In this document: in pieces, positions 6,607-28,470 of the stretch
Layout of the letters: each line of letters starts with the position of its first letter
How positions within the stretch are numbered: position 1 is the stretch's first letter
Assembly (NCBI GenBank): GCA_903813345.2
Contig: CAIIXF020000009.1
Location: forward strand, 26,322,740-26,386,739
Direction: 5' to 3'
DNA length: 64,000 bases
Origin: Owenia fusiformis
Lineage: Eukaryota; Annelida; Polychaeta; Sabellida; Oweniidae
The notes under the pieces: generated by a model
What the model saw: only the letters and a program-made list of their open reading frames with translations
Told to the model about the DNA's origin: nothing
Database searches by the model: none
Position numbers and translations under genes: made by a program

Positions 6607-9600
6607 ATGATGCGGGGCATATTCCTACTGGTGATATGTTCATTGGCATGGGGCCAAGATACCGAGCCGGATGCCGATGAAGATATGGGTGCGTATTAAA
6701 CTGAAACACCCGGGATATCTCTGGGACATTTCTGACCTGAAAACAATACCTGTACTCTAAATTAAATACCTTAGTTATCAATTTGCATTTTTTCATTTCA
6801 GTATAATCCCTTTTCTATACAAGAAAAAAAGAAGCATATTATTTAATTTTGCGTTTTCAAATCGTAGACTAGTTCTTTTTATCACTTTATTTTGGGTACA
6901 TTTACTTCAATAATTCTGGAACAGAGTTCAATTATTAAATATGGGAATTATTGTATCTAGTTTTCTATCAAACGATACTGTTTCATTCTAGGTTTCCCAC
7001 TAACCGAAGAGCAACTAGGTAAGTAGTAGTCTTTAAAATATATGGTTGAACCTTTAAAGATAGAATGGAAAATTGAACCGGCTAAATCTGACGATCAATA
7101 TACAAGTACTAATGAAATGCAAATAAGTAATGCTCCTTTTTCTGGACCCAATAATTTTGATATTATAATACAACATGTATGTCGAGTCATTTTTATCAAA
7201 AAGTCATTATTCATAAATTAGAGAAAAGCATGAAATATCGGATAAAGTATACAACTTTTGTTTTAGCTCTTTGTGGTCCGACTGGTTATTTTGCTGATCC
7301 CGATGATTGCTGTTGGTTCGTCCAGTGCGATTACGAACCATTCAACGTCGGCCATAGGGTTGCCTGCATGGGAGGTTCCGTATGGAACTCCGAGAAGTGC
7401 TCATGCGAGGAACCAAATGCCAACAATCCATGTGACCCAGCTACATGCGACGGTGAGTGGAAAGCGAAATAGCTGTTTAAGAAGTGTATATTGATATTAC
7501 ATCCTGGTATTACAAATGAATGGCAGAATCTAAGCAGATACGAACAAAGGCTCGCAGAGGGCAGGGAATGTCATTCATATATTCAAAAACATTATTAACA
7601 TTCATTTATATGTACACAAAGCCAATAAAAGTCGATAGCTATCTTTTAAAATTGATAATTCTGATTTTCTAGTTCCTGAGTTCGTGCCAACCCCTTGTCC
7701 AACAGCCGGTCTCCGTGATGGTGAGTAAAATACGGGTAAAATAAGAAAATATAAAGTGCCGACAGAAATGTGTCAAGCCTTGATACTGTGACAAAGTGAT
7801 AATGCTATCAATTATATTTTCAAACTGCTCGTCTTTACTAAGATAAAGTTTCCTATAAATTACACGAAGTAAAAAATAGGTAAAACCCTTTTGTTTATTT
7901 AGATCAATGTTGTATCGATGGACTTGTTGTCACAATATTGAACGAAACATCGTATTACGTGGATTCGGAAACCATATTGGGAAATCAGACATGCCCATAC
8001 GAGTTACTCTTCAATGCTGTTGACTGTTGCTGCGACTCTACCACTTTTACAGGTGATGAAGCTTATGTTATCTGCTACGTTCACGAACTAAGATCTCATT
8101 CAAAATACATGTTCAGGATATGGTATCAGTTCATTGAGGACAATAATGCGCGACGGTCTGACATATTCACTGTATCTCTATTTCAATGATCATGAGTGAT
8201 TTTACTTTATAAATGACATTATCCTTCTCCATATTATTTCATATTGTTCTTGTTTTTATGTCCCCACCACATAGTGTGGGGCCATATTGTCGTCCTAGGC
8301 GCGTCCGTCCGTCCGTCTGTCTGTCTGTCTGGTTGTCTGTCTGTCCGTCCGTACGTCCGGCAGTTTTCTCCAAAACCGCTACAGGTATCACCTTCTAATT
8401 TTCAGGAATAACTTATGAGTGCCTATAGATGTGGATGAAAAAAATTTAACTCGAAACTTCTTCCTGTCGGCCATTTTGAAGTCAAATGCTAAAATCCTTG
8501 TCTGCAAACTTTAAGAAAAACTGCTTCACAGTTGCATTTAAAACTTTAACATCTTGTTCAGCTCACTTCATTCTAGATCTGATTAGGTTTTGCACCTGCT
8601 AGCTCAGTCATGTCAGCCATTTTGAATGTCTTAAGAAAAGTTAGCGCGCGATAATACTTTGTATCATATTCAATGGTGTTTTTGAGTTTTCATACTTTAA
8701 CTATTTAGTAGCTTTATAAATAATTTCAGATGTACTTTGCTGTAAAAGCCTACTTTATTGTTAACAGTAGTTATATGTGATAATTTTGTAAAAAGAAATC
8801 AGCAAAAACTCATAAGGACTTTTTTATTGTCGGCCATTTTGGATTTTTCGGTCCTAAAATCTTGTCTGTGAAGTCTTGTCTGCGCGTTTTCAGGTGAACC
8901 GTTTGGTGGATCAATTTCAAATTTTCAGGGATGATTCTTAGTATAAAAATCTATATCTCATTAGTTTTTTGGCATTCTGGGTAAATGTCAAGGCAGCCAT
9001 TTTGGATTTTCCGTCCTAAAATCTTGTCTGTAAAGTCTTGTCTACTCGTTTTCAGGTGAACTGTTTGGTAGATCAATTTCAAATTTTCAGGAATGATTCT
9101 TAGTATGAAAATCTAGAACTCATTAGTTTTTTTGCATTCTGGGTAAATGTCAAGGCAGCCATTTTGGATTTTCCGTCTTAAAATCTTGCCTGTAAAGTCT
9201 TGTCTACGCGTTTTTAGGTGAACGGTTTGGTAGATCAATTTCAAATTTTCAGGGATGATTCTTTGTATGAAAATCTACATCTGATTACTTTTTTTGCATT
9301 CTGCGTAAATGTTAAGGCAGCCATTTTGGATTTTCTGTCCTAAAATCTTGTCTGTAAAGTCTTGTCTACCCGTTTTCAGGTGAACCGTTTGGTAGATCAA
9401 TTTCATATTTTCAGGGATGATTCTTAGTATGAAAATCTACAAACAGATTAGTTTTTTGATATTCTCGGTAAATGTCAAGGCAGCCATTTTGGATTTTCCA
9501 TCCTGAAATCTTGTTTGTAAAGTCTTCTTTACATGTTTTCTGGTTAACTGTGTGACGGATCAATTTCAAATTTTTCAGGGGTGGTTCTTAGTATGAAAAT

Positions 9601-12600
9601 CTAGAACTGACTAAATTTTGGGCATTCTGGGTAAATTTTAAGGTGGCCACTTTGGATTTTCCGTCCTCAAATTGTGTTGGTAAAGTCTTGTCTACTCATT
9701 TTCAGGATAACCATTTCACGGGATCACCACTTGGTGGGGACATTTTGTACACATTTGTGTTCTTGTTGTTTCTATGGTTTCCTCTTTTTCGTTTAGGACT
9801 AGAAATCGTTTTGATTCTTTCGTTATAGTTGGCGATGTACGCTTTTAGTTTGAGAAACTTATTCACTCATTAACAAAGTATGATATCGCATGCTTCTGAT
9901 ATTTTTAGCTCCCCCTCCCATGTGTGACCATTACACATTTGATCAACTGCCATTTGCGGATGAGGGTGTCATTGCCAGTGGTGCTGCATTGTTGACCCCA
10001 GGCGCAGACGCTGGTGGCGGCGCAACAGCAGGTTCTGCCTCGTTTTCAGCAGGAGCAGCAGCGGGTGCAGCTTCTGCCAAACTACACAGGTTCTCCAATG
10101 TTGACTTCAGTAATGGTTTCGCCACTGCCTTTTGGATTATGGCTGAAGGTTCCGGGTCATCAGTTCTCTTCCACAACGGAGATGAGGGTGGACAGGGTGC
10201 AAGTATATCTTTGGAGCTGTTGCAAACATCTGGTGGAGGATTCGCTATCTCTGGTGGAGTTTCCTCAGAAACAGATGGCGTTGCTGATTTCTATCAGACG
10301 ACCGGTGTAAGCATAATTATCATCCAATATGTCAATATAGATGAGTTTTGATATATCAGAATTGGAGAGGGAGCTACACCATCGACATTCCCATAGCGAC
10401 GTGATCATTCAATTATGTAAATGATCGTAATGTTAATTTAGCTTGAGAATCACATTGGCTAGGTTTCCAAATACAAACAATAATGTTTTTTCCAGTGGAG
10501 TGCCGGATCATGGCATCACGTCTGTATGTCATACCAAGATGGCCAACTGACGTACTCCTTAGACTCCGAACCACCAGTTACAGTCAATGAAGCGGGTAAA
10601 TTAACCTATTCATAACCCTATATATGCCTATAAATCCCTTCAGCATATGATTTAACAAATAAAGAAATATGTATCCCTTACGAAACAATCACAATCTTAA
10701 CTAATTTAAATATTATATAATAATTACTTAAAGACAGACTCTTTATTCATTCAATGAATGATTTTAGTTCATTCCTTCTCTGTATTTGTCCTGATGAAAT
10801 ACTGGTGTGAAAATCATATGACAATCGTTGAACTGTTGTGCTTTTGCCATATTTTCATTGTGTTTCTTGATGCTTTCTCTAAGTGTTCCACTTGACCATT
10901 GTGCATTAGAAAAATCACCGCATGAAGAATGAACCAATATTTTGCAGATGAATTGGACGATGAAAGTGTTCTTGAAATCTTTAAATCAGCTGCCAACGAT
11001 GCGGCAGTGGCAGCAGACTCCGCTACAGAAAATGTTCGCAGAAGGCTCCAGAACGTTGGCGCGGACGATCCAGGATTTTCAGAGCTCCAGGGTGTCTTAG
11101 ACTGTGTTGAACAGATCAAAGCTGATTTGGAAGACAATAAGGAATATCTGGATGATGTTCAACGAGGTCTTGATGACTTTAGAAAAGTCCGCAGACGATT
11201 CAGAAAAGCATTCAAGTGAGTCCCATCTCTTGCTTCTATGATACCCATTGTCATCTTCAATAAAAATTATAGATTGAATTTACATATATAATGATATAAG
11301 TATATTAATCCTTAAAAGTTAATCATTTTTATTCAGTCGATTCAAGAGACCAAAACGAAGGAATGATGAAAACAGGGATGAGCTCCAAGATCTTCTCGAA
11401 CGAGCTCGCAGTGCATTTGAACTTCTGCGAGAGAAGGTCACAGCAATCTGTGACAGTCTTGATAAGGTACCCACCATGAACAATAGAGAGTTTAATCTTA
11501 AACTGTTTTCACAACCTAAACATGAATGAAAAGTACATGAATATTATGGAATGTGACACGTGCCCATAGTTTTGTATGCACTTTTAGTCTACTTCAGATG
11601 CCCGTTCAGCTTCATAGTTTCGTGTGTAGAACGGGGAATTAGAAATTTCACTTTGTTGTCAACGGGAATCATTATACTCCATAAACTAACCAATAAAATA
11701 AACAATTAACTAAACAGCAGCTAAGATACATTCACAGTATTATACAAAACTAACATTCTATTTAGGTTTGCGACATTCTTGGTAACAAAGAGATCCTTAA
11801 GCAATTGGATGCTGGCTCCAAGAAAACATTGAAGAGACTTAAGAGGAAATTGAAGAGGCTCAAGGGAAAATTCGAAGATGACTCAGGAGATGGGAAGTAA
11901 GACTTAATTACAGCACAACACTCGATTCGTAAATTAGCAAAAAAAGTTTCGAAAGTTACAAGTCTCCGATGAAATCAATTAAGGAACATATATGGGATGT
12001 CAATGTATAATTATTCTAAGTCTATACGGTTATCTTAAATGACTGGAATAAATTGAAAATTTAAGAACCCTTATCGATTGAAAATGGATTTTAGCAATAC
12101 TGACCAACATGAATCTACTTGTTGAGACTAAATCAACTTCTAGTTCTTCTGAGAAAATGAGGATTTCAGAAAGGGTGCCATTGACTTATAATGGGGATGC
12201 AATTGCTTTCATCTTGCATATCTACAGTATGTTAATTCAAATACACCCTTGCTGAATTCTCATTTATTCAGAAGAACTTAAGTTAATTGAGTCTCAACAA
12301 GTATAATAGGGGTTCTTAAAAAGGAAATTGGGCTTGCTTTTTAGAACTTTTTGTTGGTACTAAATGCTTTCGGGATAGAATATAGGATGCGTTCCTTTAA
12401 ACTTTCTAAGAATATGTCTATTTGTTTTCCAGCAACATGATTTTATAATAACAATGGTACTTGTTTAATTGCAGATTTTCACTTAAGTCTATTGATAAGA
12501 CATTTGAAGAGACCGACAGAATAATCTCAGATTATGACGATAGCCAACGTACAGGAAGAAAGAAGAGACAGACAGATGATGGTAATGGTTATTTATTTAA

Positions 12601-13781
12601 TTTTTCTTTTTCATTCAAATTAAATACATTTAAAATATACATTACAATGATTGCCAAAGTTAAAAAACACATTGGTGGCAGTTTTTTCTTAATTTTTTTT
12701 TATTAAATGTTATATTATAATTCATCATTAATGTATACTGAATTGGGCAAAAAGACGTTCATGTGTCACTCTTAATATTATCTATCAGTACGAGAATGTT
12801 TATGCAACAGTAAATTAAATGCTTTCAAGTGTTAGTAAAGAAGGTGAAGAATACGTTTTGTAGAAAAGATATCGTACGTGTAAGCATGGAGCTATTCAAA
12901 ATTGTAAAAGGGGCGCAATGGTATAAATCTACTTTGAAACCAATGGACTGGTTGTCTATGGTATCACATTTACTTTCATAATGTGAAAAATTCACAAATT
13001 TTAATCAAACTTTCAACATTCTTGTTAAGTATGAGGGATTACTACTTAAGTTATTCAAATGCCCATTTACGTATATTTGTTGCTCTATTCAACCACTGAA
13101 TAATATTTTATGTCCATAGTTGCGATCGGGGCAATTTGTTTAAACTATACTTCGAACGCAAATTGTTAAAGATGATTTTCTTAAGAAACGTTTGGACCAA
13201 GTTTTGTCGTGCCGTCCTACTGAAGTTCAGTCAATGTGAGTGTAAGGAGAATAGTTTCAACAAATATTTTATGTTTACATTTTTATGATAGATGATGGAG
13301 ATGAAGAGGAAGAATTGGATACTGATATTATACAAAGCAAGTATCCATTCACTATAGGAGAAGACTTCAATGGAGCTATTGACGAGGTAGGCTCACGCTA
13401 CTTTGTTAATACTGTCAATGAATGTATTAACATTTGCGCTACATACTTGTTGCTTGTTCAGTGGAACAGCTAGTACCCCTTTCATGTTGGAATCATTTCC
13501 AAAATTAATTGATTGATTCTCTCTTTGTATTCGTACTTTAACCATGGGCGATATGTCAGATCATTTAATAAAGTCGCTGCAGTATGTTTTTTTGCTATAA
13601 ATTGGCGCATTGGCCTCTTAGAAAGGTGACAAATATAGATGTTTGTTATGATTTCTATCCAAATATTCAACCAATTTCTATTTATTTTCAGTTGTTTGTC
13701 TGTGACTTCCCTATCACCGAGGAACAAATGGACGCCATTAGAACACAGAACGAGAATCCAATTATGCCAATGATGAAATAA
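6607..13781 (+). CDS. Secreted CBM14 chitin-binding / LamG-like protein with cleavable C-terminal tail (603 aa, 13 exons)
   Basis: Exons: 6607-6688, 6992-7018, 7267-7452, 7673-7720, 7903-8052, 9909-10306, 10496-10595, 10948-11215, 11337-11466, 11766-11896, 12475-12581, 13292-13386, 13692-13781. All junctions are GT-AG and keep frame. Signal peptide MMRGIFLLVICSLAWG; a 27-base exon (FPLTEEQL); a CBM14/peritrophin-A-like domain, residues ~37-98 (GYFADPDDCCW, VQC, CMGGSVW, CSC); a second Cys-rich domain, ~115-164 (DQCCIDG...VDCCCD); a LamG/concanavalin-like domain, ~165-330 (FWIM, LFHNGD, WHHVCMSYQDG); charged helical segments, ~331-530, including a Lys/Arg-rich run; RKKR at 535-538 followed by QTDDDD; and a 65-aa tail with one Cys and DFPITEEQMDAIR. 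Probably an extracellular chitin-matrix or shell/cuticle-type protein. Mollusc Pif/BMSP proteins combine chitin-binding and LamG domains too, but carry a VWA domain not seen here. The exact family is unknown to me. Intron 5 is long and carries a repeat element. Confidence 0.85.
8303..8360. repeat. TCCG/TCTG microsatellite
   Basis: Four-base units TCCG and TCTG alternate over about 58 bases near the left end of the TIR element in intron 5. Confidence 0.85.
8833..9740. repeat. Tandem array, about 6 copies of a 162-163 bp unit
   Basis: Each unit holds GCCATTTTGGATTTT, CTAAAATCTTGTCTGTAAAG, a CAGGTGAACxGTTTGG block and GATTCTTAGTATGAAAATCTA. Spacing between starts is 163, 162, 162, 163 and 163 bases. 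The last copy is the most diverged. Confidence 0.85.
12059..12321. repeat. Short fold-back (MITE-like) element in intron 10
   Basis: The left arm TTAAGAACCC...CTTGTTGAGACT...TTCTTCTGA...TTCAG matches the right arm in inverted orientation (GAATTC...TCAGAAGAA...AGTCTCAACAAG...GGGTTCTTAA). It is about 260 bp, lies between exons 10 and 11, and has no coding content. Confidence 0.65.
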
Positions 13782-13917
13782 TTTTTACCATTCGTCCTAA
13801 AATAGTATTGAAACATCTAAGTTGTGTCGCAGTCGTGTGTTTGTGACTTCTATGACCACATGAAATGGATTGTATCCTGAACTCATACATTATATTGTCA
13901 CTTTAGTGGAGATTTCC

Positions 13918-13923
13918 AATAAA
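13918..13923 (+). promoter_or_regulatory. Polyadenylation signal of the 6607-13781 gene
   Basis: AATAAA 137 bases after the TAA stop; the nearest canonical signal downstream of the gene. Confidence 0.55.
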
Positions 13924-13996
13924 ATGTATGTTTAATATACCGAATTGCTTGTTCGCCTTATGAATGAATCATAATAATGAAAGTTTACAACATCTA

Positions 13997-14993
13997 CAGG
14001 GTGGTCCAAAAAAAGTGAACCCCTGCAACTGGCCATATTTCCCTTATTACTTGCAGGAATTATTTTTTATTTTCACATGTTGTAGAGGAAGGTCTAAAAT
14101 TTATGTTGGTACCATACATTTTTCTTAGTCTTGAAATTTGCAGAAATTATAAGCCCTAACCAAACATTACTGAAAATGGACAAATTGTGATTTTCAATAT
14201 GCGCGATTTTTCAACCCTTTAACACCTTTCCCCTGAGAATTTTTTAAGCTGCAGTCTTAAAGAACTAATATTTTCTGACTTTGTTCAATTTTAAATCTTG
14301 CACATTATGGGTTAAAACAAGCATCCTACATTTGTTAGTTGCAAAGTCATCGTGATCCAAAGAGATGTGCTAAGCTTCCACAGACGAAAACATTTTCCAG
14401 TGAAATCATGAACATAGCCCTACATGATCTTGAAATGTCAATATCTTCATAAATCATGGACCAATTCTAATGATATATGGCTCAAAACATTGAATATTGG
14501 ATTTTCTTTTGATTTTTTAAAGATATTTGATGAAGGGGTTATCAGATTCCTGGTCACAGGGGGCAACTTCCTTCCATAAGAGGCCCCCTCTAACTGTCTG
14601 TGTAGGTAACATACCCCTGAACTGTTGAACAGTTAAAAATGCTTCAAAATGATCAATGAAAGTGTGAAATGTGTTTTCTGCTTGAATAGTGTCCCTTTTG
14701 TCATATGGTAGGGTTTTAAAGGTGTATCTCTAACTGAAAGCTGTTTAAGATCATCCAATGTGTTTCAACAATTTCCGCGAATCACATTTATAAAATTTTG
14801 TACAATATTTAATTTCCAGGCATGTTTGTTAAACGCTTGTATTTTTTTTCAAAATTTAAGACTGAGAATAAATTATGGCATCAACCAAAATTTTAGACCT
14901 TTCTCTACAACATGTGATAATATGAGCCAATTCATGCATGTATTAAGAAAATTGTAGCCTGTTGCAGGGGTTCACTTTTTTTGGACCACCCTG
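13997..14993. mobile_element. Non-autonomous TIR/fold-back DNA element, about 1 kb, TA target duplication
   Basis: Termini CAGGGTGGTCCAAAAAAAG (left) and the exact inverse on the right form about 33 bases of perfect TIR, flanked by TA on both sides (13995-13996 and 14994-14995). A further, imperfect inverted repeat continues inward (CACATGTTGTAGAG...GGTCTAAAATT against AATTTTAGACC...CTCTACAACATGTG). There is no transposase frame. TA duplication with CAGGG ends points to a Tc1/mariner-like or related TA-inserting source (inference). Confidence 0.8.
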
Positions 14994-14995
14994 TA

Positions 14996-15857
14996 AATCA
15001 TAAAGTATTTACCCAAACCTATATAAACTATAAGAACTATGAACATCTGTAAGCATCTAGAGGGGAAAGAAAAGGCGGAGAGCTTTTTTGCTCCACATTG
15101 TAGCACCATTCACCATTTTCTGATGAATTAATTATAAACATTAAAGAAACATTTATATATTTTTGTTATTTTCTTTTTACATTTTTACAACTTTTATATA
15201 TAGCGTTTTCTCGACAAAAGTCAGTGCTTTTTGAGTTGTGGAGACCATTACTTTGTTTACCAACGCTCTAATGTTTGCTAAACAATCAATCAACCCAAAG
15301 GGTTTAAAAGTACAATCCATAATCGATACATTTAAATAATTACGCTCTTCCCTCAGCTATATCTATCTATCACAGGACCCTGTTGTTTTTTCCAATGTTT
15401 TTATCTCATCCCATTTGTTTAATTTAGTCGAGATAAACCAAAAGAAAATTATTTGAAATCTCTCTTTACAGGATTTCTATATAATCACTTCATAATTCCA
15501 ACCAATTTTATTGACCAATCACTTAATTACTTGTCATGGTTTTCTTATGGTTGTGAACTATTTCAAACACACCAGGAATCAAGGACGTCTATACCTTGAC
15601 AGAAGTTCTTAAAGGAACTAACAAAAGCCTCAATGAAACTGGGAATATAGAACCAGAACATGACTTATAAAATCAGACATTGTGTTTCACCATTGTAATG
15701 CATTTGTTCTCAAATATAGTATTTTCTATTAATTTAGTCTTACTATGTTGCTCTTTATGTTTGGATAAGCATGCGACAGGGATGTACGCTTTGGTCTTTT
15801 ATTCGTCGCACCTAGTATATACTCGTTTTGAAAATGGTCTTCTTATTAAATATCTAA
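14996..15857. other. Intergenic stretch, no gene seen
   Basis: AT-rich sequence between the fold-back element and the dispersed repeat carrying the LINE. The open frame 15680-15970 crosses unique sequence into the repeat and has no recognisable domain. Confidence 0.5.
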
Positions 15858-16032
15858 GCACATGTGCCAAAGGGAAAGGACCAAAAGTTGTAATGAAACT
15901 AGCAAGAAAAAGCAAACTCCAAGTGCATACCAGTCAAGAAAAACAAACCCCACATATCCCAAAACCATGATCTTACGTGAAAAGAAACAATGTCTAATAC
16001 TCCCCTTCCCCCACCATTCAAGAGCCGATATC
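15858..16032 (+). repeat. Left part of a dispersed repeat split by the LINE
   Basis: ATCTAAGCACATGTGCCAAA through CCATTCAAGAGCCGATATC matches the uninterrupted copy at 58500-58680. It continues after the LINE at 19064. The final ATATC (16028-16032) is the target-site duplication. Confidence 0.8.
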
Positions 16033-18780
16033 TTAGCTAATCAGTGGAAACTGGATAACTTATTAGCTACTACTGAGGTAAAATTTTCTATAATTGCTCT
16101 ATCTGAGACTTGGCTTAATGCATCAAATCAAAACCAGTTTAACTTACCTAACTACTCATCAGAATTTAATTCTAGAATAGATAAAAGAGGGGGTGGTGTC
16201 TGTATAAATGTTCACAACTCCTTGCAGTATATTACACGCAATGACCTTAGGGTTGATAATCTAGAGTGTGAATCAGTAGCTATTGAATTAATCAGTCAAA
16301 ACTCAAAAAATATCATTATTACTGTCATATATAAGCCACCTGGTGTTGATGTGTCACATTTTAATAGTGACTTGGGTGATTATATGAATAAAATAGCAGA
16401 TGAGGGTAAATTATCTTACATCATGGGTGACTTCAACATTGATTTACTTAAGGTTGAATCTCATGAACCCACACATGATTTTCTGAACCAGTTTTATTCA
16501 TTCAACCATGTCCCACTAATATATAGGCCGACAAGAATTACTGACAAGACTGCAACTCTTATAGATAATATTTTTACTAATGTCCCTAATATTGATGGAT
16601 GTGGTATCATCATGGAGGACATTTCTGATCACTTTCCAATCTATTCCATTTCACATCATGATACTACCAAATCTAAAAAAACATTAAGCAGTTATCGTAA
16701 TTTCAATGACTCTAATAAGCAATTATTTCTTGAGAAACTCTCAAATGTCGACTGGACCCCTTGTTATAAAAGTCAATATGATTCTTCATTTCCACTCAAA
16801 TCCAAATTTATCAAGGTTAATCATGATCCTAATAGACCCTGGTTGACTTCTGGCATCTTAACTTCTGCCAAAACTAAAAATAAGCTATATACCAAATATT
16901 TGAAAAATCCCTGTTGCAAAACAGGAAAAGCTTACAAGTCCTTCAACCATAAACTTAAGCACATAATTAAATACTCAAAACGTACACATTATCAAAATAA
17001 GTTTGCCGAAGTAAGTGGTAACATTAAAAAGTCTTGGTCTATCATTAATGAACTACTTGGAAAAAACAAAAAAGCTGCATTGCCATCTAAATTCACTATA
17101 AATGGAAAGGAAACAACAGATCATGAAATCATTTCCAATGGATTTAATAATTTTTTTACCAATATTGGTAAAAATCTAGCCAAGGAGATTCCAAAATCCA
17201 AAAAATGCTTTAATGAATACCTAGCAAGAGCTCAAAAAGTTCAATCATCTATTTATCTCAAAAATACCTCAAAAACTGAGCTTGAATTAGAAATGTGTCT
17301 TCTAAAATCTTCCTCGCCTGGACCTGATGGGATTCTACCATCACTTATTAAGTCTGCAAGACAGTTTTTAATTGATCCACTCTTGTACATATTTAACTTA
17401 TCTTTTAAATCTGGTATTTTCCCAGACGCCCTCAAATTGGCCAAAGTAACACCTGTATTTAAAAAAGGTGTCACTACAAATCCTTCGAACTATAGACCAA
17501 TTTCAGTTTTATCTGTATTTTCTAAATTGTTAGAAAAGCTCATGCACGCCAAACTCACTGGTTTTTTAGAACGTTTTGAAATTATTTTTACTTATCAATT
17601 TGGATTTCAGAAATTCAACTCTACCTACATGGCCATTTTATATTTCATTGAACAAATTCGAAAATCAACTGATTTGGGGAAAACGAGCATTGGCATAACA
17701 TTAGATTTTTCCAAGGCCTTTGACACAATTAATCATGACATTTTGATACAAAAACTTGAATACTATGGCATCAGAGGAATTGCTAAGTGCTGGTTTGAAA
17801 GTTATTTAAAAGACCGCAAACAATATGTCACCATTAACAATTATGAATCTAAACAATCATCTCTAAATTGTGGTGTTCCGCAGGGCTCGGTACTTGGACC
17901 ACTATTATTTATTCTTTACATAAATGATCTGCCTTTTGTTGCCCCTAATCTAAAATTTATTATGTTTGCTGATGACACCAATCTTCTTGATAGTGATTAT
18001 GATTTAAATGAACTTATGACTAGAACTAATGCAAACTTGAATTCAATAGATGACTGGATAAAAGCAAACAAACTTTCACTTAATATTGGCAAAACCAATG
18101 CTATTCTATTTGGACCCCAAAAAAATCAAACAAATCTGAATCTTAAAATACGCAATGAGAACATAAATTTCCGGGAAAAAATTGACTTTCTTGGAATTAT
18201 TATTGATAAAAACTTGAAATTTAAAGAACACATAAAATCTGTTGAAACAAAGATTTCTCGCGTCATTGGTTCTCTTTATCACATTAAACATCTACTTCAA
18301 ATAGACAGTTTCAAAACAATTTACTACTCATTGATACACTCTCAATTAAATTATTGCAACATAATCTGGGGTAACACATTTAAATCATTTTATGATCGTC
18401 TACATAAACTGCAGAAACAATTCTTAAGGCTAGCTTTAAATAAGGATAGACTTTCTCACTCCGCTCCCCTATTTGAAGATCTTAGAATATTAAATATTTT
18501 TCATGTCAACAGATATTGTACTGGTCAGTTCATGTACAAAATCTTTAATAAGCACCCCAGTCTTCCAAAAAATCTATTTCAAGACTTGTTTGATATCAAC
18601 ATTAATATTCATCATCATTACACAAGACAATTGCATCATTTTCATATCCCTAAATGCTCTAAACTTTCCCTTCGCTATCTGGGTCCTAATCTTTGGAATG
18701 CTCTACCACATGATGTTAAAAATCGCTCCACTCTAAATATTTTCAAATCTTCATATAAAAAACTACTCATCTATCGATAA
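15862..18780 (+). CDS. LINE endonuclease-reverse transcriptase ORF, N-terminus replaced by read-through from the host repeat
   Basis: One uninterrupted 972-codon frame. Codons 1-57 come from the flanking dispersed repeat and have no protein meaning; LINE protein begins at codon 58 (16033). Endonuclease motifs: LSETWLN (~res 80), GGGVCINVHN, MGDFNIDLL (~188) and SDHFPIY (~255). Reverse transcriptase motifs: SSSPGPDGILPSLIK (~485), LDFSKAFDTINHDIL (~615), GVPQGSVLGPLLFILYINDL (~671) and the catalytic FADD at 702-705. The C-terminal part holds the usual Cys/His-poor LINE tail ending at TAA. The block usually written GFRxxxST appears as GFQKFNST. Enzymatic residues look intact, but the missing start makes it a dead copy unless trans-supplied. 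No stops or frameshifts, so the insertion is probably young. Confidence 0.85.
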   Translation: MCQRERTKSCNETSKKKQTPSAYQSRKTNPTYPKTMILREKKQCLILPFPHHSRADILANQWKLDNLLATTEVKFSIIALSETWLNASNQNQFNLPNYSSEFNSRIDKRGGGVCINVHNSLQYITRNDLRVDNLECESVAIELISQNSKNIIITVIYKPPGVDVSHFNSDLGDYMNKIADEGKLSYIMGDFNIDLLKVESHEPTHDFLNQFYSFNHVPLIYRPTRITDKTATLIDNIFTNVPNIDGCGIIMEDISDHFPIYSISHHDTTKSKKTLSSYRNFNDSNKQLFLEKLSNVDWTPCYKSQYDSSFPLKSKFIKVNHDPNRPWLTSGILTSAKTKNKLYTKYLKNPCCKTGKAYKSFNHKLKHIIKYSKRTHYQNKFAEVSGNIKKSWSIINELLGKNKKAALPSKFTINGKETTDHEIISNGFNNFFTNIGKNLAKEIPKSKKCFNEYLARAQKVQSSIYLKNTSKTELELEMCLLKSSSPGPDGILPSLIKSARQFLIDPLLYIFNLSFKSGIFPDALKLAKVTPVFKKGVTTNPSNYRPISVLSVFSKLLEKLMHAKLTGFLERFEIIFTYQFGFQKFNSTYMAILYFIEQIRKSTDLGKTSIGITLDFSKAFDTINHDILIQKLEYYGIRGIAKCWFESYLKDRKQYVTINNYESKQSSLNCGVPQGSVLGPLLFILYINDLPFVAPNLKFIMFADDTNLLDSDYDLNELMTRTNANLNSIDDWIKANKLSLNIGKTNAILFGPQKNQTNLNLKIRNENINFREKIDFLGIIIDKNLKFKEHIKSVETKISRVIGSLYHIKHLLQIDSFKTIYYSLIHSQLNYCNIIWGNTFKSFYDRLHKLQKQFLRLALNKDRLSHSAPLFEDLRILNIFHVNRYCTGQFMYKIFNKHPSLPKNLFQDLFDININIHHHYTRQLHHFHIPKCSKLSLRYLGPNLWNALPHDVKNRSTLNIFKSSYKKLLIYR

Positions 18781-19063
18781 TGTATAATACCAATATCATA
18801 CTATACTGTTGATTTTATACTGGTACCCGATTTTTGTAACATTTTTACATTGTACATCCTTAGATTAATTGTTAATACCATTTTTATATACCTACATGTA
18901 ACATAATATAAGTGTTTTCTTTTATATGTAGTCTAGTTGTCATTTTAATGATTTCTGTTAAACCGCAACATATACCCACTAGGGTGTCTAGCGGCTTGTT
19001 TTTTTATAGTGTATATTATATAAGAATTATGAAATAAATAATAATTGAATTGAATTGAATTGA
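16033..19063 (+). mobile_element. 5'-truncated non-LTR retrotransposon (LINE, CR1/jockey-type), 3.03 kb
   Basis: The boundaries come from comparison with the empty copy of the host repeat at 58.67 kb: ...GATATC | LINE | ATATCACAATCC, with ATATC on both sides (16028-16032 and 19064-19068). The body carries an apurinic-type endonuclease and reverse transcriptase in one frame, a ~280-base 3' UTR and a short (TTGAA)n tail at about 19043-19063. The start lies inside the endonuclease domain, so the first endonuclease motif and anything before it are missing, which is typical 5' truncation. The clade (CR1/L2/jockey group) is inferred from motif style and the repeat tail. Confidence 0.88.
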
Positions 19064-19177
19064 ATATCACAATCCAAGACCAGAACACCAAGGGATAATT
19101 CATTTATACTGAAGTCATTACAATACATGTTGACGAAAAAAATTAGAAATTGATAGCCAATACTCATAACATCAAAA
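19064..19177 (+). repeat. Right part of the dispersed repeat split by the LINE
   Basis: ATCACAATCCAAGACCAGAA, then ATACTGAAGTCATTA, then GATAGCCAATACTCAxAACA, continues the copy begun at 15858 and matches 58684-58798 closely. Confidence 0.8.
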
Positions 19178-19367
19178 ATAGTTGTAGATACAAGTACTCA
19201 TACAAGATAAAGCATTCAGTCTAAAATGATGTGGGATAGATAAAATCCAGTCTCCAAGTCCATAGAAAGATTGATATGAGAATCGATTAGAAATTACAGG
19301 GCAGAAGAAAAGTCTCTAGATTTGAAATACGAACAGACTTTATCATCTAGCAATCTTTTGTCAAATT

Positions 19368-19999
19368 ACAAATTATGACAAAACAATGATAAATGATGAC
19401 ACGAGAGCAAAAAACTTTTTGGACAACTCTAGGGAGAAAATTAAGTAAATATAAAGTGTCAAGTTACAAATTATAATTCTTTTGTCATCATTTGACATGA
19501 GAGCAAAAATTTAAACATTTTTTGGACAACCCTAGGAAGAAACTTAAATGAATATCATATGTCAAGTAACAAATTATGACAAAAAAACAATAATTGATGA
19601 CATGAAAGCAAAATTTTGAAGACTTCTTGTTGACCTCGGAAGTAACTCGAAAAAATACCATATGTCAAGCTACAAATTATTGCAATAGAATGAAGATTGA
19701 TGACATGAGAGCAAAACTCTGAAGAGTTCTTGGACCTTGGACAACCCGAGGAAGAAACTTAATGAACACCATATGTCAAGGTACAAATTATGACAAAAAA
19801 CAATAATTGATGACATGAAAGCAAAATTTTGAAGACTTCTTGGCCAATCCTTGGAACAAACTCAGATAAACATAATATGTCAAGCTGCAAATTATTGTAA
19901 TAGAATAAAAATTGATGACATGAGAACAAAAATTTAAAGACTGGACAACCCTCGAAAGAGACTTTGATAGATATCACATGTCAACGTACAAATGATGAC
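19368..19999. repeat. Tandem array of a ~103 bp unit, 6-7 diverged copies
   Basis: Units start with ACAAATTAT(G/T) at about 19368, 19466, 19569, 19672, 19783, 19887 and 19988, spaced 97-111 bases. Each contains ATTGATGACATGAxAGCAAAA, a GACAACCC-GGAAGAAACTT block and CATATGTCAAG. The array ends about 60 bases downstream of the stop of the minus-strand paralog. Confidence 0.8.
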
Positions 20000-20031
20000 A
20001 CAATATTTCGTTGAAGGGCTACATGTTATTA

Positions 20032-20037
20032 TTTATT
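20032..20037 (-). promoter_or_regulatory. Polyadenylation signal of the minus-strand paralog
   Basis: AATAAA on the minus strand about 20 bases after the stop codon at 20058-20060. A second AATAAA overlaps the stop itself (20057-20062). Confidence 0.5.
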
Positions 20038-20057
20038 TCTGTAAAGATCACAGTAAT

Positions 20058-23000
20058 TTATTGTTCAGGTATTTCCTCCTCCTCTTCCTCGGTGGTGTCA
20101 ACTTCATTTGAAAACTCATCGGGTTTAATGGGATTCTCATTAAAGTCTCTCATAGCAAAGAGTTGTTCGTCAGTTAGAGCAAAGTCACACACGAATATCT
20201 AAAAAATGTAAAGTATAAGTAAAGGTCAAGCCGTTTGATATTTGATAAAGGCAGAATCAGATCCAGCTAGGGCCATGGAGCAACTTTTTCGAACAATTGT
20301 TTCAATTTTAGAATAAATTTGGTTCTGGTAAACATTTTTTGAATTTATGTGTATTTGGGAGAATTTACATTCCAATAACATTCTATCATCCTCACTGTTC
20401 AACAACTAGTTACTTTGACTTCACGGTTACGAGTTTTTTGTTTTCTCGATTAAACCTCATGATTTGGCTCAAAGCTAGAAAAAAGTCACGTTAATCAGTT
20501 CCTTTGATTTGGAATTTGTTTTGTAAATGAAGTTGCAATTCATATATTTAGCCCCTGGCTTCTGTTACATTGACGAAAGTCCGTTTATATTACCAATGTC
20601 GTTATATTAACAATATATGTTACTTTGACGACTTACGTCAATGCAACAAAAGCGATGGTCTAAATGTATGAATTACAAAATTCCAAACCGAGAGCATTTC
20701 TAAAAGCTAGACTATATTGTCTAACTTTGTGCCAAATGATAATCCGCAACATGAGTAAGCTTAAAACGAGAATCTTCAATCGAGAAAACAAAAAAACTCG
20801 TATCCAGTAAGTTCATCCATTTTGTTACATTGACGTTCCGTCAAAGTAACTAGTTGTGGAACAGTGCATCCCGAGGACGAGAGGAAAATGTTGTTTTTCC
20901 TCGAATAATAAGCATAATGACAATGATAAATGATTTTTGCTGTATATTACCTCATCCATTGATCCATTGAAGTCTTCCCCAATCGTGATAGGCCACTTGC
21001 TAGGAATGATAAAAGTATTAGGGGGATTGATAGGGCCATCATCATCATCTGTAATAACAAAACCTTGAATTCAATATGGATACGATGCATCGAGGTCTTT
21101 ATTATGAAGTTTGATATCAGAGCAGTAAACGTACATGATATTGTGTCTCCCGGATATATTTTGATATGTTCATTCTGTTATTGTAGTAAACTAAAGTAGT
21201 AAATTAAAAGTAAACGCAGGGAGTTTGTAAGACTTGAACTCAAGACTCCGGTGGTCGACGCTTCACTAGAATTGGCCAACGGTTTAGATTGCGGATCCGC
21301 AGCCTCCAAAGGCTGTGTCGCCAGCTAAACTAATTAGAGGGGACTTTTGGTATATTAGACATACAAAGTCACGTCAACTTCTGGCTTGACAGTAACACAC
21401 AGTAGATATTTTCAAGTGGGGATGTTTGTTGAAAATAAAGGCCTGTTATACCAGTTTGTCTCCTTCCACGACGACCACCACCACCGCCTGTACTAGTGCT
21501 GCCACCATCAAACGAGGCCAGCTTTAGTTCCGCCTCAGGGAAAGTTTCTTCAATACCTCTAAGTCCAAACCTAGAATAAAAGCATTTTCAAATATAGAAT
21601 AAAAATACCGTACATAGTGTATCTGTCAATACTATAGCCATATTTACCATATACAGGGTGGTCCAAAAAAATGGGACACTCGTAATTCAAAAATAAATAT
21701 TGATTTTCTTGACGAAAACATGTAATATTATATACCAATGGATTGAAATACAAGTGTCCCATCTTTTTTGGACCACCCTGTATATACAACATACATCTCG
21801 ATATATTATGAATGTCATTCCAGCCCAAATAAAGGATTACATGTATAATCCAAAAATTCAGAGTAACGTGTAATTTCAACATTACAAACCTCTTTTTTCT
21901 GTAAAAAGAAAACGAGAGGGTAGAAGCTCCTATAGTTGATGAATTTCCTTAAACATGTACTTTCCTCATAAAAGGTACATACACCCTTTGCATTTGCCAT
22001 GGCACTAATTACAAGCTTAACAATTTTTGCAAGCCTTTAATTGCATATTCAGTAGAGACTGTGTCAAAGCCTGTTGATGGTGCAAATTGGAGACTGATAC
22101 GAATTATAACATGGCATTAACATGCAAAATGTCACCACCTGTCATTTGTTACAGACACCGAACTCCGAACACCAACCGCTGATCACCGTCCGCAAATACG
22201 TTGGAGACCATAACAATATTGTGGTTGTGGTGTTAACAATAAAGAAAGAATTTCAATTTTAGATATTTACCTTTTATCTCCTGGAGGATTGTCATCGTTG
22301 AATTTTCCCTTTAGTTTCTTCAATTTATTCTTGAGAACTTTAAGCAGGCGTTTGACTTCTTTCTCTAAATGCTTCTGGATGATTCGATCTTCCAATATGA
22401 CACACACCTATAAGTAGATTGTTTTTGACACCTTTTCAAAGCCTTAATTCAGCATGTCATCACTATACCTTGGATGATATTGAGGCATTCATTGTGAAAT
22501 TTGTTTTGAGGGATTCTTGACAACGGCCAAACACTTTCACTTTGGTTATTATCTAGCGCTGTGACATTCAATTGGAAATTTAAAGTGCATTTATTAGATT
22601 TAGTTAATGAAAAGGAATCAAATTGATGATTATCCTCAAAACGTCGTTTTTAACGTTTTCTAAGGCCTAGATAGTTAAATACATCATTTAATGTTTTAAA
22701 GCAGAATGTATTGCAATACTTGTTTGTAGGCGAAATAGTATTACAATGTCTACAATCACACTAAATTTCGTGATATTAAATACGAATACCATTTGAGTAT
22801 TACCACAGCGTTCGACGTACACGCTTTAAACAAATATCATTTTCTTTATTTTTATTTAAATATTTTTACTGTAATTTTTTTTTTGTTGGATGAACGTTTG
22901 GCCCTAATAGGGCATTGGTACAAATGAATCCTTTATATATTTGCTATAAATAATCTTTCACAAATGCACTAGTACCCGTTTTTAAGCGATCCAGAAACCG

Positions 23001-26000
23001 TTATTTTGAATAGACATAATCAATTGAATGTTAGACATTCAATTGACAAAGATAAAGACACGTTTCCTAACCTTCTCAAGATCTTGACAGATACGAGAGA
23101 CCTGGGCAGAAAGTAGGTCGAATGCACCCTTTACGTCTTCAAATGCATCCTCCAATGCTCTTTTTGAATCACTATCTTGTTTGGCTGGACGACAAAACAC
23201 ACTGCAATAGCAACAATCAGATCATTTTAGATTATGGAGAACATTAAAATCCCATTTACCCCATTGCAGTTTTACATAACTGGCAAATTTGATTGATCCT
23301 TTTGCTCCCTAAGTAATACTTCCTCTGGCACAAACATTATTAAACTGAACACTCTATAATGTACAAAAACACTATATTGAAAAGAACATTTTGTCTATCA
23401 TTAAATAAAGAAAATTAAAAAATCTGCTATGAATGTTTACGAGAATGTAGAAATCCTCTATTAGAGGCATGACATCTAACATTTTGAATGACTTAATGTT
23501 TTATTTATCTCTTGCTCACGTAGGCCTAATATTGGAATGCTCACTTAAATGCTCTTCTATAGACCCTTCTTTTTGATCTAAAGTCAGTGAGTCCCGAGTT
23601 CAGGTCGTTGATATATCTGCTATTTTCATCCAAATCACTTTTGATTATTTCAAGGCAGTCTTTAACATCTTGTATTCTTAGTCCTGGAACTTCTTCAGCT
23701 GTTGGGTCAGGAGTTGGTAGTTCAAAGTCAAAATTTCTCATTAGATCACGTACACGGGTCGCCACTTGAACTGCTTCAAAACTTGCTTGGTCCATAAGAA
23801 GCTGAATACTTTCGTCATCTGCGTCGGCTATAAATAAAAAGACATAAAGACTACCATAACATGCATGCTTTGAACCAAGATGTAACCGATCGTGCGATCA
23901 GTACAATAAATATCAATGTAAGCGACACCCAGACATAATTACAAAATACGAAATATAGTAAAAAGCGTCAATTGTGACTGTTTCTCCATTGGACGTCTTG
24001 TTTGAGCCTACATGTACATGGTGTCCCGAAAGTATGCCCCCCCCCTAGGCAGACATATACCAGTGTCGTCATAGTATGTGTCATGTATCATTTTAAAGCT
24101 TATCTAAAGTTACATTGATTCGCCAAGTATCATGGTTCAACTCTCAAATGTGAAAAGATTACAGGCATTTCAAGTGTTTTTAGTGTTTGGTCAAAATTAA
24201 GTTCAATTTTACACCAAATCACTAGTCAATGTGTCCTCCTGGGCCATCTTAACAGCAGCAGTTCTTTTCGGGTCGGATGGATATTGAGTTGGAAAAAGAG
24301 AACGATGGAGGTCAAAACTCTAGGGAAACTCTTCTAAAGTGCCTTAACAGGTTTTAAGCGGGTTATAAAATTCCACACCCCTATTTGAAGGGCTTTTAAG
24401 GTCATATCTGAAAATAATTGCTGCTGTTAACATGGCCAAGGGGGGACTCATTGACTAGTAATGTCGTGTAAAATTGAACTTTATTTTGACAAAACACTAA
24501 CTCTTGGAATATGTCTACCTAGGGGGGGGGGGCATACTTTCGGGACACCCTGTATATCAAACACTTTATATTCAGGATCATATATTTAAAGGAAAACAAA
24601 AAGTTATTTCAATGGATCTTATATCCTTGATTCATTCTAAGCTTATCATGTACACTTTCATTCAAGGGTCTGCATACATGTATTTATCTCATTTTAAGGA
24701 TCACAAAGATCAAATGATCAAATAGGTGTACTTGCCTGATTTAAAGGATCATAATATGTACTTGCCTGATTCACTGATTACAATAGGAGGGGTATCGTCA
24801 AGATAGAGCTTCAACTCTCCTCTTTCATATCTCATACCGACCCAATGCCATTCCCCTTCTCCCCACTGTAACATAAATATAGTTGACCACCATAGCAGTG
24901 AATTGAAATAAAAGAACTAGAGAAAAACTGAGAGGGTTGATGTCACAATGGATACACTTTGGAATCGTGTTCATCCTCGTTCAAAATGTCTTCTTCAAAA
25001 TGTCCTCCACACTCACGTCTCAATACTAATTATTATTAGAATTTGTAGAAGTTGTTGATAATTCCCTAGTGTTTTAAATAGTTCTTATATATATAATATA
25101 TCTTATCACTTTACTATAGGTTATTTTGTCCATATCTAATGGCACAAAATAAAGCCCGTACGTATAAAGATAAAAACACGAAAAACGGTTGTCATACGAG
25201 TATTAATAATTTGTGAACAGATTCTCTATCCTTCATTCCAGGGTATTTCAGTTCTTGAAACAAAAAAGTCGATGCGGCAACAAAGTCCGAGGTTAGCTAT
25301 GGGTGTACGATCAACAAGATGGGTGGAGTACGTTTACAGATGAACTAATACTGCCTTTGTATAGACATTTTCATTACATTTCTACATGAAGGAATCAAGC
25401 ATCAAGCAAAACAGCCACATACGAAAAATATGATTAAAGAAAATGGACGTTGTCATTGAACACTCACTGTCGTCTGCTGGATGATGTCGTTCACTCCATC
25501 CGAAGACAAGACACCCGTAGATATAGTGGTATGACCACCGGAAGTGACCATTTCCATACTAATAGTGGCATTAGCACCGCCGAAATCTCCATTGTGAAAG
25601 ATTGTCGATGTTCCCTCGCCCTCAACCATTACCCAGGAAGAGAAAGTAAAATCTTCGCCGAATGGAACATTCGCGAATTTATCAAGTTTTGCTTGGGCGC
25701 CACCGTAAGCTCCACCTCCTGTTGCTCCGTAAGAGAAGGATATAGAGCCGTTTGTTTGAGCACCGTTGAAGCCAGCAGAAGCGCCCATATCGCTGAATCG
25801 TGCGCCAATTGTTGACACTCCTTCCCTTGAGAAGTTCGGGTCGTCAAACGTGAAGTGATCGCACATGGCGCTCGGAAGATCTATTTAAAAAATTAATTAC
25901 ATAACATAAAAACTGTCATATTTTTCTCGTATAGTATATATTCTTGAGGAAGCAAATTCAAAAATATAAGAAATAACAAGAAAAATATAATTTTATCTCG

Positions 26001-28470
26001 TATATCTAAAATATGGAACGATTAAAAAGGAGAATATGTTTACAATCAGCCTACCATCTACCTATATCTAATCCAAATCAGCATTGACAGTTTATTTCTA
26101 TACAAAGAAATGAATGCATTTTAGTTATGCAGACTGATCCATTCTTCTCACAAATATATACATTCTTACCAGCATGTAGTTCTCCCGTTTCACAGCAGCA
26201 GTCGTCCTTGTTAAAGAGAATACCAAGTGGACACGTTTGAATAGTATTCCTAACCTCAGGATCTTCACCGTCAACATAGAATGACGTCTCATTAACAACG
26301 TTGATAACGACTCCGTCAATACAGCACTGATCTGTTGTAAATGAAAAATAATGTCGACAGATCTTTCCAATGTATTCTGACGCTTTCTTGTGAACCAAAT
26401 AAACTAGATAGGGTATAACGGCTGGATTTATCATGTCATGTTTTGCAGGTAACCAAACCCGTCTGGTCCATTCATCTACTCCCTGACGTCGTAGATCTAC
26501 GAAATTTCAGATTCAGAGAGTAGATAACTCTGGACAATACTGGTTTGGTTAACTTTAAAGGGAGCAAGGTGCGTTCAGAAAATTGAAACAAGTTTTGGTA
26601 TATATATGCGATAATTTAGTTTGAGTTCGAGAAACTGTTAGAATGACATCATAAAAAGCAAGTCGCATGGTTCACAAATTTCAAACTGGATGGCAACATG
26701 CCTTATAAAGAAGTACACGGGCAGCACATAGAAAGTACGTTAACTATAATTATTAGTATTCGTTTGAAATAATTATTAAATAGAAAATAATATAGAACCA
26801 CTTACCCTCCCCGAGCAAACCTTCTCCCGTTGTTTCGTTAAAAACAGGACATTGGTTCGGTTCCCAGTCAGGAACTTGAAGATAATATATATGTCTTAAT
26901 CAATAGATAAAATCAAGCATTAACAAATGAAAACAAATATCTCTGCAAGGTAATTTAAATAGAAAGGAAAACTAACATGTACAGGGTGGTCTGAAATGGC
27001 AATCCTGCCGCTATTTTCCTCATGTCTTTCTCATTTTAAAGAATTTCTCCATGATATTTGGCACACATGTATACCATTCAATTTCCATCTCTCAATTTCC
27101 TGCTGAGGAGTGCAGTCGGGTCATTGATAACTTGTACAGATTCGCCTTGAGGGCGATGATGGCCACACCTTGGGCATGTTGTTTAAAGTGCTGTAACCTT
27201 GCAACTATCAATCTGATGGTCGTAAAATGTGATAGGATGATGTACAAATGTGCCAAATATCAGGGTGTAATTTTTTTTAAATATCAAAGATATTAGGAAA
27301 ATGCAGGGTTCATTTCGTAATAATTTAACAATTTTCGTTGCAGATACAGAGAAAAAGACGAATTTGTTCCTGTGTTGAGGCTAATTTATTTCTAATACTA
27401 ATTCAATTGATGTTTGTCCTTACCACCTTTGCATTCTGTCACATTACATACTACACTGGCCTTCTCAGGTACTACACAGCCACATTCCTGAGGGTCCCAG
27501 ACAGTCCCTCCCATACAGGGCTTTCGGAAGCCTATGGAATAAGGCTCGTAGGCGCACTGAATATACCAGCAGCAATCCGTGGGGTCTGCATAGTAACCAA
27601 GGGGGTAGCACATCCCTTGGGAAATTACGGACACATTTCTTACAGGGTGTCAATAGATAAATGATTTCACTGACAAGGAAATATATTAATTCACATAATT
27701 TCAAGTTGACATGCATCAAAGTAACATTCATCTCAAAAGAAAGACTCTTGGAAAGCTATTTCGTATTTCATGATTTTCCTCTCACACAAGCCCCTTGGTT
27801 CTTATTTTCGTTGAAAATTCTGAAACAATGCTTCAAAAAGTAAATCTAAAAAGGTGAAAAAATTAATTTATATTAATATGTGGTGATTTGGGATAAAATA
27901 TCGTACTTAATCGAGCTACTCTATGCTATTACGGATTCGAAAAACATTTTAAACTCCAGTTCATATGTTTTTTCAGTGTGGCCAGCCAAATAAAAATGTA
28001 AACTAAACAAATGAGGCTTTAAAATAAAGCAGCGGCCAATAAAAAGCTTTTGTATAAAGTGCAGAAACCAAACTATTAGACTATTCTAAAACCTAACATT
28101 CTAGCACTTACTCTTCTGTAAAGCTGACAATGCAAACCCAATATCTGAAAAAGAGATAATATTGTTATAAATGAAAACATGCTGCAATGCAGGTTATGTC
28201 TGAAAACAAGCTTAATAGTTTCAATTTGCATTTATTTTCTTATTTTCTCATCATACTATGTTTTTTGTTTATATAAGTTCATCGTATTGCTCACTCAATT
28301 TGAAGTGTTGGTTTGATTTTGCTCTTGCGTTTGATAATGACTTGCATAGCCTTTGACATCATTATGTCATATAAGGGTAATTTACCGTCCTCAACTGGAT
28401 CTGGTATTGTTTCGATGTCGTCCTGTGCCACGCATAATGCCGCAAGTGCAAGCAGCACCAGAATCTTCAT
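20058..28470 (-). CDS. Secreted CBM14 chitin-binding / LamG-like protein, second full paralog (653 aa, 13 exons)
   Basis: Exons in coding order: 28470-28386, 28144-28112, 27615-27424, 26874-26806, 26331-26170, 25880-25468, 24865-24766, 23827-23545, 23201-23072, 22407-22271, 21570-21452, 21048-20951, 20198-20058. All junctions keep frame, with the same phases as the 6607-13781 gene; exon 7 (100 bases) and exon 9 (130 bases) have identical length in both. The exon 7 donor is GC rather than GT (CAG|GCAAGT). Signal peptide MKILVLLALAALCVA; short exon 2 (GFALSALQ); CBM14-like domain ~40-103 (GYYADPTDCCW, CMGGTVW); Cys-rich domain ~127-180 (DQCCIDG...DDCCCE); LamG-like domain ~181-351 (SWVM, IFHNGD, WHWVGM); charged helices with a Lys-rich run ending KKLKGKF; RGRR at 569-572 followed by QTDDDD; then an 81-aa tail with FVCDFALTDEQLFAMR and an acidic end absent from the other two copies. 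Convergent with the 6607 gene. Function inferred as extracellular chitin-matrix protein. Confidence 0.85.
20393..20865. mobile_element. Fold-back TIR element in the last intron of the minus-strand paralog
   Basis: CACTGTTCAACAACTAGTTA (left end) is inverted at the right end (TAACTAGTTGTGGAACAGTG). A second matched block, ACGAGTTTTTTGTTTTCTCGATT, faces AATCGAGAAAACAAAAAAACTCGT. About 473 bp, no coding capacity. Confidence 0.75.
21654..21780. mobile_element. 127-bp MITE, TA target duplication
   Basis: CAGGGTGGTCCAAAAAAATG at the left and its near-exact inverse at the right (CATCTTTTTTGGACCACCCTG), flanked by TA (21652-21653 and 21781-21782). It sits in intron 10 of the minus-strand paralog and has the same termini as the 13997-14993 element. 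Confidence 0.85.
24017..24552. mobile_element. 536-bp fold-back MITE, TA target duplication
   Basis: The right end GGCATACTTTCGGGACACCCTG mirrors the left end CATGGTGTCCCGAAAGTATGCC with one mismatch; TA flanks both sides. The inner parts also pair over most of the length (CACTAGTCAATG...GGCC...AACAGCAGCA against TGCTGCTGTTAAC...GGCC...CATTGACTAGT). G/C runs border the ends. It lies in intron 7 of the minus-strand paralog. Confidence 0.8.
26980..27320. mobile_element. Fold-back element with CAGGGTGGTC end, right end eroded
   Basis: The left end TACAGGGTGGTCTGAAATGG is followed by ATTTTCCTCATGTCTTTCTC and GATATTTGGCACACATGTATACC. The right half carries inverted partners (GCCAAATATCAGGGTGTAAT, AAAGATATTAGGAAAATGCAGGG). 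The outermost right TIR is not recognisable, so that boundary is approximate. It lies in intron 3 of the minus-strand paralog. Confidence 0.55.

Follow-up and report, generated by a model that had tools for sequence, protein, structure and literature searches.

Two genes in a 64,000-nucleotide stretch of Owenia fusiformis DNA (hereafter the window, C9:26322740-26386739) encode proteins in which, as read from the sequence, a CBM14 domain and a Cys module are followed by a laminin-G (LG) domain split by a long, in part helical insert that carries a furin-type site. The gene models, the domain order, the completion of the LG domain by the protein tail and the presence of the site are established at the sequence level. 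It is fairly probable, though well short of assured, that these are secreted chitin-matrix proteins whose split LG domain would be cut by a furin-type enzyme into two chains held together by the fold and a disulfide. The proteins belong to a family that is spread over several clusters on a single contig, C9, in a genome of 498 Mb and 525 contigs, and they resemble in design both the LamG-domain proteins of annelid tubes and the mollusc Pif/BMSP proteins.

Gene models in the window

Gene A lies on the plus strand (6607-13781) and gene B on the minus strand (28470-20058); each comprises 13 exons and is open from the ATG to the stop codon, encoding 603 and 652 aa, respectively. The intron phases 1,1,1,1,1,0,1,2,0,2,1,0 are common to all 12 introns of both genes, and thus the two full 13-exon genes with an identical phase pattern named in the original prediction are borne out. 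The splice sites of A and B are of consensus type except for a GC donor needed at exon 7 of B, and exon 3 of B has two donor options that differ by one residue. The two proteins are 48-49% identical, and their signal peptides were called by eye, with no predictor. The exons of gene A are as follows.

6607..6688, +, exon 1: signal peptide (by eye), hydrophobic N-terminus MMRGIFLLVICSLAWG
6992..7018, +, exon 2: micro-exon, 9 residues
7267..7452, +, exon 3: CBM14 (peritrophin-A) domain
7673..7720, +, exon 4: linker
7903..8052, +, exon 5: Cys module, CC...CP..F..CCC
9909..10306, +, exon 6: N-terminal part of laminin-G
10496..10595, +, exon 7: middle part of laminin-G, WHHV..Y..G
10948..11215, +, exon 8: insert, helical hairpin (predicted structure)
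11337..11466, +, exon 9: insert
11766..11896, +, exon 10: insert, lysine/arginine-rich stretch
12475..12581, +, exon 11: insert, furin-type site RKKR (residues 535-538)
13292..13386, +, exon 12: acidic stretch, then C-terminal laminin-G strand TIGEDFNGAIDE
13692..13781, +, exon 13: last laminin-G strand LFVCDFPITEEQM and stop

Those of gene B run in the opposite direction.

28386..28470, -, exon 1: signal peptide (by eye)
28112..28144, -, exon 2: micro-exon, 11 residues
27427..27615, -, exon 3: CBM14 (alternative end 27424)
26806..26874, -, exon 4: linker
26170..26331, -, exon 5: Cys module
25468..25880, -, exon 6: N-terminal part of laminin-G
24766..24865, -, exon 7: middle part of laminin-G, GC donor
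23545..23827, -, exon 8: insert, aligns with exon 8 of A
23072..23201, -, exon 9: insert
22271..22407, -, exon 10: insert, basic
21452..21570, -, exon 11: insert, RGRR site (residues 568-571)
20951..21048, -, exon 12: acidic start and C-terminal laminin-G strand
20058..20198, -, exon 13: last laminin-G strand, acidic end, stop

The profile of the micro-exon (6992-7018 in A, 28112-28144 in B) weakly resembles the motif of tail exon 13 (E 0.026), the stretch FPLTEEQL of A being comparable with DFPITEEQM in the last LG exon; similar stretches are found in gene C (FELTDEQI) and in a further gene, D (YNLSEAEM).

The partial upstream copy that had been noted in the window is indeed related, but it is part of a third full 13-exon gene, C, of which the window holds the end.

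220..312, +, gene C exon 13: final exon, including the stop; all other exons of C are upstream of the window, starting at C9:26312936

Exons 2-12 of C were read directly upstream of the window, an exon at C9:26312936 fits as the signal-peptide exon and has a phase-1 donor, and the intron phases are those of A and B. Exon 5 of C needs a GC donor, and its junction and that of exon 7 of B are therefore the least certain in these models. C is 64% identical to A. Between the codons of these two genes, third-position differences amount to 0.49 versus 0.27 and 0.21 at the other positions, and the NG86 method gives a dN of 0.28 and a dS of 1.40, which together indicate that the frames are under purifying selection; dS for A-B and B-C is saturated and yields no value.

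Other features of the window were recorded alongside. A and B are convergent, with a LINE-type reverse-transcriptase frame in between (15850-18780), a 976 aa open frame with endonuclease and reverse-transcriptase domains of the non-LTR retrotransposon type. Intron 5 of A contains a tandem array (8833-9706, 162-base unit, 5.4 copies), and a second array lies at 62802-63542 (30-base unit, about 24 copies). Long open frames include one in which a secretin-family (7tm_2) receptor domain is accompanied by a long N-terminal part (32161-34860), a large one with CILP (cartilage intermediate layer protein) domains (49465-51879) and two rhodopsin-family receptor (7tm_1) frames (55337-56545 and 57173-57784).

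A laminin-G domain in two parts

Pfam Laminin_G_3 (PF13385) exceeds its cut-off in the full A and B proteins, in which the match ends at model position 98-100 of 151. The strands expected next (IG..F.G.IDEV) were found in exons 12-13, past the insert. Joining the tail to the N-terminal part raised the score from 35.0 bits (model 5-98) to 43.5 (5-149) in A, from 26.9 (3-101) to 37.0 (3-149) in C and from 21.6 (15-96) to 28.3 (15-150) in D (locus L010), while in B the full-length protein including the insert gave 31.7 bits (4-98) and the N-terminal part with the tail 39.6 (4-149). The gain is thus 6.7-10.1 bits, with the match reaching the model end, in 4/4 genes, and it is the tail that lifts C and D above the curated cut-off of 27.6. 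As a control, five shuffles of the A tail gave 34.2-35.6 bits with matches ending at 99-104. Because score and coverage rise in every gene, unlike with the shuffles, the tail is read as the C-terminal end of the LG domain in the four genes tested (A-D).

That the tail is instead an independent module, a propeptide or released peptide whose likeness to LG strands arose by chance, is very improbable: a convertase-type site does lie between tail and LG, the tails of A-C end in a short NxNPI.P motif, the tail alone matched no Pfam family, and Laminin_G_2 gave no separation of the real A tail (23.1 bits) from five shuffles (22.1-26.9 bits; N-terminal part alone 20.9), but the separate module was set aside on the Laminin_G_3 gain, seen in 4/4 genes and not with the five shuffled tails.

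The original prediction had given the order as signal peptide, exon 2, CBM14, Cys-rich module, LamG, basic helices and tail. This order is correct, but LamG and tail make up one domain rather than two elements. As corrected from the sequence, CBM14 and the Cys module are followed by an LG domain into which a partly helical stretch bearing a furin-type site is inserted. The annotation changes accordingly in that the LG end lies approximately 200 residues further downstream, where it is overlooked by a domain scan of the full proteins.

The insert and its furin-type site

In the insert of ~200 residues (about residues 332-553 in A), helices give way to a basic stretch, which is followed by a furin-type RX[KR]R site and then by an acidic stretch. 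The fold predicted for exon 8 of A, taken alone and with its B counterpart as the sole other alignment row, is a hairpin of two helices, predicted with confidence (mean pLDDT 89.4, helices at 4-35 and 41-87). Residues 405-500 of A include 32 K/R and 16 D/E, and the 18 residues after the site 11 D/E and 0 K/R.

RX[KR]R is present in the exon preceding the acidic stretch in 4/4 complete genes (A, B, C and D), and also in the exon-11 equivalent of six partial genes (E, F, H, I, J and L), a tally that takes in A-F, H-J and L and leaves out G, K, M, N and O. The sites of E and F come from a match to an exon-11 profile that itself contains the site. Those of H, I, J and L were picked up by a motif scan between LG and tail and then recognised by their flanks; since the exon was located via the motif, these four of the 10 genes do not count as independent support. 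As a background, 1002 pieces of 35 residues were taken from the window frames, A and B included, and 19 of them contain the motif. Further copies lie in the insert (two in A, one each in B and C), so that a cut would be possible at more than one place, and in a scan limited to the RX[KR]R pattern all copies in A, B and C sit inside the LG insert. A processing site, as implied by the processed tail of the original prediction, is likely.

Two cysteines could clamp the parts of the domain together. A Cys in the first LG strand is present in 13/13 loci with this strand read (12 of the 15 loci of the family described below and L035; unread in E, L and M), and a Cys in the last strand in 6/6 loci. 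Downstream of the site there is just one Cys in each of A, B and C (C578 in A), which makes a disulfide to the N-terminal chain likely; in A, the bond would join C170 of the first strand to C578 of the last.

CBM14 and the Cys module

CBM_14 (PF01607) is just over its cut-off of 22.1 bits in the full B protein (22.6 bits) and under it in A (16.6) and D (10.5), which marks the domain as divergent. From the genome, 24 Cys and 15 CBM modules were extracted, of which 22 and 14 were aligned, the near-copies L021 and L004 being left out. All 14 scanned CBM modules, four of which come from genes without an LG seen, matched CBM_14 at E<=10 (best 8e-8).

The consensus of the Cys module, CC..G..VY....T.Y.......CP.GQVF...DCCCE, resembles the second half of CBM14, the C..G..F/W....C.C half being common to both, and in loci L012 and L018 the two profiles match one stretch. 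Alignment of the two profiles by hhalign gave a probability of 5.4% and an E of 0.007 over 19 of 57 columns, and 0/22 scanned Cys modules matched PF01607 at E<=10. Against the PDB, the Cys profile hit the CBM14 of chitotriosidase over the same stretch as its third and last match (E 0.36), after two better, unrelated hits. The AlphaFold model of the module, made with a two-row alignment, has a pLDDT of 51. A proven second CBM14 is not established by these values (hhalign 5.4%, 0/22 Pfam matches), and the module is possibly a chitin-binding-like (CB-like) domain, judging from its sequence pattern.

The module also occurs outside the LG loci. On C12 and C4 it alternates with CBM14, as in L013 and L014 (C12:27.94-27.96 Mb) and L007 (C4:6.38 Mb), where the fetched stretches contain no LG, and further matches lie on C1, C6 and C11. 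Most matches across the genome sit on 12 large contigs.

A clustered family on one contig

Searches with A and B, together with module profiles run on the fetched stretches, identified 15 loci with CBM14, Cys module and N-terminal LG part on the same strand and in the same order, all on C9. Fourteen of the 15 fall in three clusters: three loci at 26.31-26.35 Mb (A, B and C), three at 13.13-13.16 Mb (D, E and F) and eight at 20.00-20.15 Mb (G-N); the remaining one (O) is at 2.93 Mb. The secreted CBM14, Cys-rich and LamG proteins predicted as a local cluster are supported, and their cluster is one of several on the contig. Two more LG matches (2.92 and 6.52 Mb) come without CBM14 shown.

Full gene models are those of A-D, and one gene per locus is presumed for the rest. 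D, at C9:13.16 Mb, is a whole gene with both start and stop codon (612 aa) and has the same order, with the Cys-LG exon fused. The tail strand T12 was read in 9/15 loci (A, B, C, D, E, H, I, J and L, the tail of E being taken from the neighbouring locus L008) and the tail strand T13 in six (A, B, C, D, H and I). An initial tail pattern search in the fetched loci had found C and D only, and the tail search gave no strand in 6/15 loci (F, G, K, M, N and O), where the DNA was not fetched or has diverged.

Only the best candidates were scored and only chosen stretches fetched, and the locus counts are therefore lower bounds. A genome-wide Laminin_G_3 search returned 45 matches, among which A and B were absent although protein searches did list both, so that such scans undercount. 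Across the whole window, the module profiles matched at A, B and exon 13 of C, and weakly at 6553-6573 (E 0.066).

Relation to annelid tube proteins and to Pif/BMSP

Among PDB sequences, the best phmmer match of A had an E of 0.19. Deep-sea tubeworm LamG-domain proteins (LamGP) are described, in the available account, as forming two clades in which LamG is linked with VWA or ChtBD2, with 65 and 140 copies in two tubeworms that arose via tandem duplication; five LamG-family proteins are reported from the tube proteome, and the phylostratum is Polychaeta (PMC8476170). As in the ChtBD2 clade, LamG and ChtBD2 (equivalent to CBM14) are found here in one chain, and the family is likewise tandemly duplicated, its 15 loci lying on a single contig and all but one of them in three clusters. 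The Cys module, the split LG and the putative cleavage site of the present proteins have no counterpart in the available description of the LamGPs. By analogy of domain content, and as compared without sequences, the ChtBD2 clade would be the nearest published family.

Pif/BMSP proteins, according to the available text of PMC11291548, consist of VWA, CB and CB-like domains and an LG in two conserved parts that lie 138-1438 residues apart, and PfuPif is cleaved at RMKR, its C-terminal product carrying a partial LG. The proteins encoded by A and B share with this description a CBM14 followed by a second Cys-rich region and then by an LG, the division of that LG around a long charged insert, and a dibasic site. 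In contrast to the N-terminal VWA of Pif/BMSP, the signal-peptide exon leads here via exon 2 to CBM14; Pfam scans of the complete proteins, at E<=1 for A and B and at E<=10 for D, list no VWA, C having been scanned in its LG part only, in line with the predicted absence of VWA. Compared by eye with the quoted Pif sequence, the insert enters the LG later, such that the W..V..Y.dG strand stands before the insert here and after it in Pif. The predicted cleavage site is inside the LG insert here, and the cut is before the LG in PfuPif, as that protein is described, and the at least partly helical nature of the insert is listed as another difference.

The proteins might accordingly be Pif/BMSP relatives that have lost the VWA and inherited CBM14, a CB-like domain, a split LG and the dibasic cut from a Pif-type ancestor. 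This descent is rather unlikely, although the domain layout, the two-part LG and the RMKR cut of PfuPif (PMC11291548) speak for it, as does an IG..F.G.MDEV strand in the quoted C-terminal LG part of Pif, which gives a weak Laminin_G_3 match under the cut-off (109-141, E 0.019), the quoted N-terminal part giving none. The half-motif shared by Cys module and CBM14 fits a CB-like domain as well, but hhalign assigns this likeness only 5.4% over 19 columns. The lack of VWA in full A, B and D, the later position of the insert and the cut of PfuPif before its LG argue against such descent. The quoted C-terminal LG part gave no match in this genome, a kind of empty result that weighs little, and no VWA-containing Pif-type gene is on C9 among the matches listed. 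Given that no VWA was found and that the site lies inside the LG insert, the family is not filed as Pif/BMSP, but by analogy it may work like a Pif-type processed matrix protein.

The family had been put forward as undescribed. The exact arrangement was not found in the open-access literature searched, and to this extent the claim stands; but a tandemly expanded annelid LamG/ChtBD2 tube family has already been published (PMC8476170, as far as its available account goes), and CBM14, split LG and dibasic site are known from the described Pif/BMSP proteins, which do have VWA.

Proposed function

The preferred reading is that of a secreted, processed chitin-matrix protein, for which we infer the cutting, the disulfide, the chitin binding and the place of use. 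The protein would be secreted and anchored on chitin via CBM14, while the LG domain would provide a second contact, to protein or glycan. On its way through the secretory pathway, the protein is presumed to be cleaved at RX[KR]R by a furin-type convertase, giving an N-terminal chain that would end in the basic helical region and a C-terminal chain that would start with the acidic stretch and complete the LG sandwich. The two chains are probably kept together by the LG fold and the C170-C578 disulfide (A numbering), and would be incorporated into a chitin matrix of the tube, cuticle, chaetae or gut lining.

CBM14 domains are characteristic of peritrophins and are present in chitinases as well. 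This distribution would suit peritrophic proteins, proteins of the gut lining or soluble defence lectins that recognise chitin, in place of tube or cuticle structure, and a tandem, diverged family is also compatible with roles in recognition. Such a function is nevertheless doubtful, as the published relatives that come nearest in domain content are, from what is described of them, tube matrix proteins, and purifying selection is seen between A and C.

Within the processed matrix protein reading, a more speculative idea is that the two-chain LG, cut inside its own helical insert and clamped by the disulfide, is switched by its freed acidic and basic ends from a soluble to an assembling form outside the cell. 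This may be entertained, but is considered improbable.

The family would link annelid chitin-matrix proteins to the mollusc Pif/BMSP design of chitin binding, interrupted laminin-G and a dibasic site, without VWA. It may therefore provide a testable case of whether spiralian matrix proteins draw on a shared ancestral toolkit or whether cleavable laminin-G inserts have been invented repeatedly.
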